Source of the DNA: Nocardia iowensis
GTDB taxonomy: Bacteria; Actinomycetota; Actinomycetes; Mycobacteriales; Mycobacteriaceae
Direction of reading: 5' to 3'
NCBI RefSeq assembly: GCF_019222765.1
Contig: NZ_CP078145.1
Span: 806,001 to 870,000, forward strand
Length of the DNA stretch: 64,000 nt
Part shown: one piece after another, positions 2,676 through 3,956 of the stretch
Position numbering within the stretch: position 1 is the first letter of the stretch
Layout: each line of letters starts with the position of its first letter
Notes under the pieces: model-generated
The model's input: the letters and a program-made list of their open reading frames with translations, nothing else
What the model was told of the DNA's origin: nothing
Databases searched by the model: none
Position numbers and translations under genes: made by a program

Positions 2676-2704
2676 TTCATCGCTTGGTACATGCCTGGTA
2701 CAGT
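2676..2704 (+). promoter_or_regulatory. Promoter of the aroF leader
   Basis: TTCATC (2676-2681), 17 bases, TACAGT (2699-2704). Transcription would begin about 7 bases later, at the GTG of the leader peptide at 2712, so the leader mRNA may be leaderless. Confidence 0.45.
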
Positions 2705-2711
2705 CGCCGAC

Positions 2712-2783
2712 GTGCAGCGCGTGTATTTCTGGTTTAGCAAGCCGGCCCTGGGTGGGCTGGTCTGCGGCAACCGCCTGCGCTGA
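2712..2783 (+). CDS. Aromatic amino acid leader peptide upstream of DAHP synthase
   Basis: A 23-residue ORF whose codons 5-8 read Tyr-Phe-Trp-Phe (UAU UUC UGG UUU, 2724-2735). All three aromatic end-products of the pathway are sensed in a row, the signature of a ribosome-mediated attenuator. The GTG start sits 7 bases after a TACAGT -10 box; an in-frame ATG at 2691 would give 30 residues. The stop at 2781-2783 precedes the aroF start by 81 bases. Function is inferred from codon content, position and the alternative RNA hairpins that follow. Confidence 0.75.
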   Translation: MQRVYFWFSKPALGGLVCGNRLR

Positions 2784-2862
2784 CGACATTCCACCCCGAG
2801 CCGGATTGGACCGGCTCGACGGGTTTCACGTCCGTGGGTCGGCCGAAGAAAAGGAACCCACG
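2741..2862 (+). promoter_or_regulatory. Transcription attenuator with competing hairpins, aroF leader
   Basis: Segment 1 GCCGGCCC (2741-2748) pairs with segment 2 GGGCTGGT (2754-2761). Segment 3 CGAGCCGG (2797-2804) pairs perfectly with segment 4 CCGGCTCG (2811-2818), a GC-rich terminator-like hairpin. Segment 2 can instead pair with GACCGGCTC (2809-2817), which would break the 3:4 hairpin. A ribosome stalled at the aromatic codons would cover segment 1 and free segment 2. A further hairpin, CGTGGGT (2833-2839) with ACCCACG (2856-2862), holds the AAAAGGA ribosome-binding site in its loop. Pairings were done by eye; no energies were computed. Confidence 0.65.
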
Positions 2863-2864
2863 AC

Positions 2865-3956
2865 ATGACTACCGCAGCCGACGTCGACGCGCGGCACTCC
2901 GATCTCGATGATCAACGCACCTTGAGCGTGAGCCCGCTGCGCTCACCTGCCGAGGTGCGCCACGTGCACCCGATCACCGATCCGCTCGCGGATACGGTCC
3001 GTAAGGGTCGCGCGGCCACCGTCGACGTGCTGAACGGCGTCGACGACCGCCTGATGGTGATCGTCGGCCCGTGCTCGGTGCACGACCCGGCCGCCGCCCT
3101 CGACTACGCCCGCCGCCTGGCCGCCAAGGCCGCCGAGCTCGATGACCGGCTGCACGTGGTGATGCGGGTGTACTTCGAGAAGCCGCGCACCACCCTGGGC
3201 TGGAAGGGGCTGATCAACGATCCGCACCTGGACGGCTCCTTCGACGTCAACACCGGCCTCGGCTTCGGCCGCAAGCTGCTGGTCGACATCACCGCGCTCG
3301 GCCTGCCGGTGGCCTGCGAATTCCTCGACCCGATCACCCCGCAGTACATCGCCGACCTGGTCTCCTACGGCGCCATCGGCGCCCGCACCGCGGCCAGCCA
3401 GGTGCACCGCCAGCTGAGCAGCGCGCTATCTATGCCGGTCGGCATCAAGAACGGCACCGACGGCGATGTGCAGGTCGCCGTGGACGGTGTCCGTGCCGCG
3501 GCGGCCAGCCACGTCTTCCCCGGCACCGACCTGGACGGGCGCGCCGCGCTGATCCGCACCACCGGCAACCCCGACTGCCACGTCATTTTGCGCGGCGGCA
3601 CCGCTGGCCCGAACTACGACGCGGCGTCGGTCGCCGAGGCGTGCCTTCGGCTGGAGAAGGCCGGGCTGCCGCAGCGGCTCGTTGTCGACGCCAGCCACGG
3701 CAACAGCAACAAGGACCACAACAAGCAGGTCGATGTGGTCACCGACATCGCGACGCGGCTGGCCGCGAACGAACCCGGCGTCGTCGGCGTGATGCTGGAG
3801 AGCTTCCTCGTCGCGGGCAGGCAGGATCTCACCCTCGGCCACGCCGACGAACTCACTTACGGCCAGTCCATCACCGACGCCTGCCTGGACTGGGACACCA
3901 CCGCCCGTCAGCTCGACCGGCTGGCCGACGCGGTCCAGCGTCGTCGTAATCCCTGA
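2865..3956 (+). CDS. aroF: 3-deoxy-7-phosphoheptulonate (DAHP) synthase, class I
   Basis: Catalyses condensation of phosphoenolpyruvate with erythrose 4-phosphate, the committed step of aromatic amino acid synthesis. At 363 residues it matches the E. coli AroF/G/H-type class I enzyme: IVGPCSVHD (metal-ligand Cys70), the PEP-binding segment RVYFEKPRTTLGWKG near residues 101-115, and DASHGNSNKDHNKQ near the C-terminal metal/substrate site. An N-terminal extension of about 20 residues precedes the RSPAEV segment, where feedback inhibitors bind in this class. The AAAAGGA ribosome-binding site lies in a hairpin loop. Expression appears controlled by the aromatic leader peptide upstream. The symbol aroF versus aroG cannot be settled from sequence alone. 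Confidence 0.93.
   Translation: MTTAADVDARHSDLDDQRTLSVSPLRSPAEVRHVHPITDPLADTVRKGRAATVDVLNGVDDRLMVIVGPCSVHDPAAALDYARRLAAKAAELDDRLHVVMRVYFEKPRTTLGWKGLINDPHLDGSFDVNTGLGFGRKLLVDITALGLPVACEFLDPITPQYIADLVSYGAIGARTAASQVHRQLSSALSMPVGIKNGTDGDVQVAVDGVRAAAASHVFPGTDLDGRAALIRTTGNPDCHVILRGGTAGPNYDAASVAEACLRLEKAGLPQRLVVDASHGNSNKDHNKQVDVVTDIATRLAANEPGVVGVMLESFLVAGRQDLTLGHADELTYGQSITDACLDWDTTARQLDRLADAVQRRRNP

Follow-up and report, generated by a model that had tools for sequence, protein, structure and literature searches.

What does a run of tyrosine, phenylalanine and tryptophan codons do in front of a gene for DAHP synthase, the committed entry to these three amino acids and to many actinobacterial natural products? 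The question is raised by a locus of Nocardia iowensis within a 64 kb stretch of DNA, hereafter the window, which spans bases 806001-870000 in a single contig of 8.95 Mb. The gene, at 2865..3956 and, like every element of the leader region described here, on the + strand, begins with ATG 2865 and encodes a type I DAHP synthase of the aroFGH type (363 aa), with matches to the NCBIfam models TIGR00034 (aroFGH, 485.7 bits, cutoff 173.2) and NF009395 (492.6 bits, cutoff 343) and to Pfam PF00793 (DAHP_synth_1, 289.6 bits). A sequence-only reading had reported a 23-codon ORF with Tyr-Phe-Trp-Phe ahead of this gene, and direct inspection bears this out: the ORF (2712..2783) starts with GTG, encodes VQRVYFWFSKPALGGLVCGNRLR and stops with TGA at 2781-2783, 81 nt before the DAHP synthase start, its codons 5-8 (TAT TTC TGG TTT, 2724..2735) forming the putative sensor run. 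A scan of both strands of the 64 kb window for leaders containing F, W and Y returned this ORF as the sole match, and an NCBIfam search with the peptide gave no match. The gene upstream of the leader (2087-2557) specifies a member of the carboxymuconolactone decarboxylase family (Pfam PF02627, 75.1 bits, cutoff 23).

A -10-like element, TACAGT, is located at 2699..2704 with TGG before it and 7 nt between its end and the leader GTG; we take TGG-TACAGT to be of the extended -10 type. No sigma-70 consensus promoter was detected by scan at the leader. Given that TACAGT ends 7 nt before the GTG, it is plausible that the leader mRNA is leaderless and begins at GTG 2712.

Using a scan that requires TANNNT 5-9 nt before an ATG or GTG, an ORF of 9-45 codons and F, W and Y within 8 codons, we surveyed 190 regions upstream of DAHP synthase genes. 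The genus contributed 68 primary loci plus 2 second copies (68 genomes out of the 146 with a match at 1e-80, 148 searched), the family 85 loci (84 genomes out of 101 non-genus ones with a match; the family search matched 109 of 131 overall) and the order 35 loci (35 genomes out of 52 with a match at 1e-60, 121 searched). The scan matched in 177 of the 190 regions, against 2 of 1900 dinucleotide shuffles and none of the 190 reverse strands, and every one of the 68 primary loci of the genus has a leader. The distance from TANNNT to the start is 7 nt in 145 of the 177 leaders, 6 nt in 17 and 8 nt in 15, and the start codon is GTG in 127 and ATG in 50. Together with the conserved aromatic run, the -10 spacing backs the earlier proposal that an aromatic leader peptide is encoded at the start of an mRNA that is probably leaderless. 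Four of the 13 regions missed by the scan belong to second gene copies (L069, L070, L072, L246), whose lack of a leader ORF fits an unregulated or differently regulated isozyme. By eye, the leaders of L236 and L292 have Tyr and Phe and no Trp, that of L289 has Trp and Phe and no Tyr, and no leader was seen upstream of the DAHP synthase in L245, L247 and L248-L251. The second DAHP synthases of L069 and L070, without a leader, are about 85% identical to the window protein.

The pattern TGGTTTANCNNNCCGGCCCNNGGTGGG, which fixes Trp-Phe and leaves Tyr free, gave at least 119 matching stretches in the genomes of named species, with 80 loci among the matches listed; the genera represented among these matches are Nocardia, Rhodococcus, Rhodococcoides, Prescottella, Antrihabitans, Amycolatopsis, Saccharomonospora, Kutzneria, Actinophytocola, Prauserella, Haloechinothrix and Pseudonocardia. 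TANNNT lies 6-8 nt 5' of the leader start in all 80 of these listed loci (the script preferred such starts), and the DAHP synthase motif GPCS[VIA]H is found 310-370 nt downstream in all 77 listed loci with enough sequence, the remaining 3 ending before the motif position. Tyr is present in 78 of the 80 leaders among the matches listed, being replaced by Phe in L124 and L163. Leaders that miss one aromatic residue (L236 and L292 without Trp; L289, L124 and L163 without Tyr) constitute natural tests of the need for each codon. Retention of the Tyr-Phe-Trp-Phe run in relatives had been set beforehand as a refuting test, which the run passed across genera and families; judged from sequence, similar aromatic leaders are spread over several families within a single order of Actinomycetota.

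Leaders of the window type, which we call class A, have YFWF, YYWF or YWF before PALGG or PAPGG; another large set has YWRF before APGG, and SYRWF, RWFTYF, WQSYF, WYAYF, QYWFF and YRWRRF are further runs. The order and neighbours of the aromatic residues vary, and Trp, Tyr and Phe together are rarely lost, with the reservation that the 177 leaders were selected for all three (3 more of the 190 regions have a leader lacking one). Tyr is encoded in these 177 leaders by TAT 176 times and by TAC 16 times, and Phe by TTT 188 times and by TTC 101 times; the corresponding counts in seven chosen window ORFs, taken for comparison, are TAT 8 and TAC 38, TTT 3 and TTC 57. UAU and UUU codons, rare in the chosen ORFs, are kept in the leaders, where such wobble-read codons may slow the ribosome at the sensor. 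The leader most likely lets the ribosome sense a shortage of any of Tyr, Phe and Trp.

The four complementary RNA segments proposed earlier are present, and the duplexes 1:2, 2:4 and 3:4 (the last with its lower stem) have computed energies of -14.8, -14.3 and -19.0 kcal/mol, respectively. Segment 1 (2741-2748) is complementary to segment 2 (GGGCTGGTC, 2754..2762) and lies within a longer segment A (GCCGGCCC, T and GGGTGGG, 2741..2756), which has segments 2 and B as alternative partners. Segment B (TCCACCC followed by CGAGCCGG, 2790..2804) contains segment 3 (2797-2804) and can pair either with A, as a candidate antiterminator or antisequestor with a duplex energy of -23.2 kcal/mol, or with segment C, which is segment 4 (CCGGCTCG, 2811..2818). 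C is the 3' arm of hairpin B:C, which GGG 2821-2823 can lengthen, and is followed by UUUC. Further downstream, a hairpin absent from the sequence-only reading surrounds the Shine-Dalgarno site by pairing 2833-2839 with 2856-2862: its 5' arm is segment 5 (CGTGGGTCGG, 2833..2842), which is also complementary to C and to A, and its 3' arm is segment 6 (ACCCACG, 2856..2862), ending 2 nt before the start codon. The Shine-Dalgarno sequence of the DAHP synthase gene (AAAGGA, 2850..2855) lies between the arms of 5:6, in the window outside the main stem. The leader region as a whole folds with -74.8 kcal/mol compared with -60.1 +/- 4.1 kcal/mol for shuffled sequences (z -3.6), none of 200 shuffles being as stable. 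The start of the leader ORF (CAGCGC, 2715-2720) is complementary to its end (GCGCTG, 2777-2782), the two being paired in the minimum-energy fold; by eye this pairing is also present in several relatives, and CGCTGA recurs at the end of most class A leaders.

Pairing of segment 2 with segment 4 had been proposed to break 3:4, and this did not hold for the window RNA, where forcing 2:4 costs 19.5 kcal/mol (-49.1 versus -68.6) and 3:4 has a probability of 0.99-1.0 at every ribosome position tested. Because of this cost, and because 3:4 is formed wherever the ribosome stands, 2:4 was ruled out as the antiterminator in the window. Among 43 class A sequences, 33 keep 3:4 above 0.8 whatever the state, and 10 show a fall in some state.

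The A:B pairing was followed with a stall model that assigns the ribosome a footprint of 13 nt, counted from the A-site codon's first base, and omits all upstream RNA. With the window RNA ending at B, pairing of B to the leader has a probability of 0.85, 0.85, 0.77 and 0.50 for stalls at Y5, F6, W7 and F8, and of 0.0 with the ribosome at the stop codon. Of the 43 class A sequences, 41 have four aromatic codons and two have three; for the 41 the means are 0.82, 0.82, 0.75 and 0.47, and 0 at the stop, with values above 0.5 in 41, 41, 41 and 5 of the 41 at the successive codons. The other leaders number 72, or 68 after L244, L275, L277 and L301, in which no B was recognised, were dropped; in these 68, which are not de-duplicated, the mean is 0.94 at the first aromatic codon, 0.50 at the last and 0 at the stop, and the value exceeds 0.5 in 68, 41 and none of the 68, respectively. 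The zero at the stop codon is due in part to the assumed 13-nt footprint, which removes A. At equilibrium the full-length window RNA keeps B:C near 1.0 and an openness of the ribosome-binding site of 0.39-0.40 at every stall, and it is because of this lack of switching that co-transcriptional trapping is assumed. Folding with a ribosome on codons 5-8, as suggested by the sequence-only reading, therefore predicts A:B at the stalls for RNA ending at B and no switch for the full-length window RNA.

To follow the helices through evolution we compared the duplex energy of each sequence's own partners with that of partners exchanged between species (2000 permutations, uncorrected for relatedness). 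Class A was represented by 44 non-redundant sequences out of 95 (under 86% identical), with L232-L234, L269, L288 and L302-L306 as class A leaders outside this set; L110, which has a U-tract and no CCGGCUC arm, was left out of the 43 used for covariation, folding and the stall model. The 68 other leaders were reduced to 58 for covariation, one having no assigned start and 9 more being removed by a 90% filter. Downstream gene starts were chosen by a script (in frame, with a Shine-Dalgarno-like word); those of L047, L097, L100 and L271 are doubtful, and that of L270, in the covariation set, is visibly wrong.

The Shine-Dalgarno hairpin 5:6 covaries in class A, with an energy of -9.64 for own partners and -7.89 +/- 0.30 for swapped ones, a difference reached by none of 2000 permutations of the 43 sequences, relatedness being uncorrected. 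Its arms are CGTGGGT/ACCCACG in the window, GATGGGT/ACCCATC in L050, TTCGGGT/ACCCGAA in L073 and TGCGGG/CCCGCA in L074; it is weak or absent in L047 (with misplaced segments), L075, L077 and L096. In the other class, own pairing of 5:6 was equalled in 1 of 2000 permutations of 58 sequences and in 0 of 2000 for 41 YWRF sequences, relatedness again uncorrected, and L273 has the arms CAGGTGCC/GGCACCTG. Outside class A, A:B covaries as well (own -25.46 versus swapped -21.2 +/- 0.4 kcal/mol, 0 of 2000 in 58 non-redundant sequences without correction for relatedness; 0 of 2000 in 41 YWRF sequences), with paired changes such as GGCTCCGGATGG with CATCCGGAGCC and GGCTCTGGAG with CTCCAGAGCC. B:C covaries in the 58 other sequences (0 of 2000, relatedness uncorrected) and is not convincing in the 41 YWRF sequences alone (103 of 2000). 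Within class A no clear covariation was seen for A:2, A:B, 2:4, B:C, C:5 or P, for which 916, 1147, 1471, 86, 115 and 1494 of the 2000 permutations reached the own value, since the letters hardly vary. The Shine-Dalgarno sequence of L036 lies in a small inverted repeat of its own (GAGAG-GAA-CUCUC), apparently a different way to hide the site.

These data bear on whether the leader acts on transcription or on translation. Hairpin 3:4, that is B:C, had been described as terminator-like, and in the window the claim of a U-tract terminator was not sustained: a scan requiring 5 T in 8 found none there, the hairpin being followed by just UUU and then C. U-tract hairpins of any kind are present in 4 of the 43 class A sequences, as opposed to 28 of the 58 others, and only in L074 among the 43 is the U-tract hairpin B:C itself. 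A classical transcription attenuator, with B:C as intrinsic terminator, A:B as antiterminator and the Shine-Dalgarno hairpin as secondary, nonetheless has a substantial chance of being correct, if one short of even. The stall folding obeys the same A, B and C logic under this explanation, a clear U-tract follows the B:C hairpin in L074 and in L110 (outside the 43), many relatives outside the clade have a separate U-tract terminator after B, and the AroR system of Corynebacterium glutamicum is described in such terms in the available text of two papers (PMC11802643, PMC11525245). Against it stand the UUUC of the window and the scarcity of U-tracts in class A, and it leaves the covarying Shine-Dalgarno hairpin unexplained. 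As B:C has no U-tract here, while the Shine-Dalgarno hairpin covaries, we favour translation initiation as the probable output, perhaps together with termination.

Another route to the same output would be a long-range helix between A (2741-2748) and segment 5 (2836-2843) that depends on the stall and opens the Shine-Dalgarno site directly, B:C being always formed. At the first aromatic stall this A:5 pairing is the equilibrium switch predicted for 18 of the 43 class A sequences, while C:5 exceeds 0.3 in just 4 of the 43 (L071, L075, L077 and L080), those where C:5 is predicted at equilibrium during the stall with loss of B:C. Mean openness of the ribosome-binding site over the 43 is 0.51 at the first aromatic stall versus 0.38 at the stop (Wilcoxon p 1.4e-6) and versus 0.41 when the leader is shuffled (32 of 43 sequences being more open with their own leader, p 3.6e-6), in agreement with A:5, which would also account for the resemblance of segment 5 to segment 2. 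We nevertheless regard it as unlikely: in the window A:2 wins, the best fold being favoured over A:5 by 10.2 kcal/mol; under the footprint used, the switch is seldom predicted for Trp or the last Phe; and by eye class B sequences contain no equivalent.

That the conserved product is a small functional peptide, with incidental RNA folding, is highly improbable. The peptide is indeed conserved within the clade, but between families it diverges except in the aromatic cluster and in PALGG/APGG, the part overlying segment A; moreover, the nucleotide sequence of A is near invariant, third positions included, in the 44 non-redundant class A leaders, the Shine-Dalgarno hairpin covaries and NCBIfam has no matching peptide. 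A ligand-binding riboswitch, or another sensor independent of leader translation, would suit the structured 5' region, but the leader ORF carries conserved sensor codons and no Rfam family reached its gathering score in the 64 kb window or was credible in 2650-2900 (the sole weak match, to an unrelated lncRNA family with E 1.8, was taken as chance), so we give it hardly any weight.

We consider it probable that the leader subjects the DAHP synthase gene to ribosome-mediated attenuation, in which stalling sets the choice between A:B and B:C and hairpin 5:6 provides the output, perhaps with a contribution from termination. Transcription would start at the GTG, and a ribosome loading at the 5' end would trail the RNA polymerase. 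Under a shortage of charged tRNA for Tyr, Phe or Trp, the ribosome would wait on UAU UUC UGG UUU and leave A free, so that A could pair with B as B emerges, before C is made. With A:B formed, C would be unpaired and could take segment 5; 5:6 would not be made, and the enzyme would be produced. With sufficient aromatic amino acids the ribosome would instead reach the stop codon and cover the start of B (2790). The terminating ribosome would prevent A:B, and hairpin B:C would therefore form; by geometry the end of segment 2 (2762) should lie just behind this ribosome, so that A could refold with segment 2. Once B:C is made, 5:6 would form around the Shine-Dalgarno site and translation would be reduced, and B:C may also halt some polymerases. 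Sequence comparison establishes the leader with its aromatic codons and leaderless spacing, the complementarity within A:B, B:C and 5:6, and the covariation of 5:6; we infer the stalling, the order of events, the trapping of A:B and the dominance of translation over termination, including the final link to initiation.

In L237-L239 and L293-L300, which belong to another family, B (GAGCCGGC) has two complementary stretches, one in the leader and the other, GCCGGCTC, farther downstream, and L237, L239 and L294 have a hairpin and a T-rich stretch between B and GCCGGCTC; if the middle part were taken out of this arrangement, the result would resemble class A. We tentatively propose, at somewhat less than even chances, that one leaderless leader serves several families of the order as an OR-gate for the three aromatic amino acids at the entry enzyme of the shikimate pathway, with loss of the terminator in the Nocardia-Rhodococcus-Pseudonocardiaceae branch, where the alternating A, B and C helices would have come to control the Shine-Dalgarno hairpin, a change from transcriptional to translational attenuation. 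Natural variants with or without a U-tract and with reordered or lost aromatic residues make shifts between the two kinds of attenuator directly testable.

An aroR-aroF attenuator was reportedly described in Corynebacterium glutamicum by Neshat et al. in 2014. Going by the available text of the literature on it, this is the nearest known system and one of the same kind, with a short aromatic-codon leader directly upstream of a DAHP synthase gene and expression tied to stalling. The sequence-only reading had called a triple-aromatic attenuator less familiar; the published aroR-aroF system takes away part of that novelty (PMC4046766, PMC11802643, as far as their available text goes), and the window leader differs from it in including Trp. 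The AroR leader is given as Phe-Tyr-Phe before aroF (PMC4046766, available text), and that of the window is Tyr-Phe-Trp-Phe; by the same partial account, the window also differs in having no U-tract terminator and a covarying Shine-Dalgarno hairpin. In the available portions of further papers, C. glutamicum aroF is induced by Phe limitation and Tyr is without effect (PMC11802643), which counts against three-way sensing, and aroR is ascribed both to translational control by Phe and Tyr (PMC7356990) and to attenuation of transcription (PMC11525245). Our comparison includes L101 (MRNWRFYFEWGSGR, 2.7 Mb genome) and L283 (MRMWRFYFSKAPEAETS, 2.4 Mb genome), where the Phe-Tyr-Phe run described for AroR occurs in a leader at the same position, with leaderless spacing and a B segment (GGAGCC).

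According to the available text of a 2005 survey of actinobacterial attenuators that took in N. farcinica, Phe and Tyr operons yielded no conserved elements (PMC1262725), which makes the occurrence of these leaders across families informative. Among the literature matches listed, judged by title and start of abstract, there was no three-aromatic attenuator in these genera and no survey of such leaders beyond Corynebacterium. Attenuators of the trp and phe type (trpL and pheL of Escherichia coli; trp of Corynebacterium and Streptomyces) resemble the window leader in their sensor codons, mutually exclusive helices and an outcome set by ribosome position, whereas they sense one amino acid and the window leader three, from a leaderless start and with no U-tract. 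Measured against the trp type, the window has a leader ORF with codons for the product and exclusive helices (in RNA ending at B) and lacks the U-tract terminator, described for trp attenuators in the available text of PMC1262725; the conserved hairpin occluding the Shine-Dalgarno site that marks a translation attenuator is present as 5:6. The polycysteine short ORFs of mycobacteria (Canestrari et al. 2020, via the available text of PMC13236596) are likewise leaderless, carry successive sensor codons ahead of a biosynthetic operon and are described as translation attenuation; compared by that description only, they read cysteine and the window leader aromatic residues. The ilvB leaders (LVVI in Mycobacterium tuberculosis; available text of PMC13236596) differ in reading branched-chain residues and in having a clear terminator and antiterminator and a long 5' leader, and share with the window the principle that one leader reads several amino acids of one pathway. 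For the aromatic pathway, a single leader reading all three products would provide a simple cis-acting sensor of demand.
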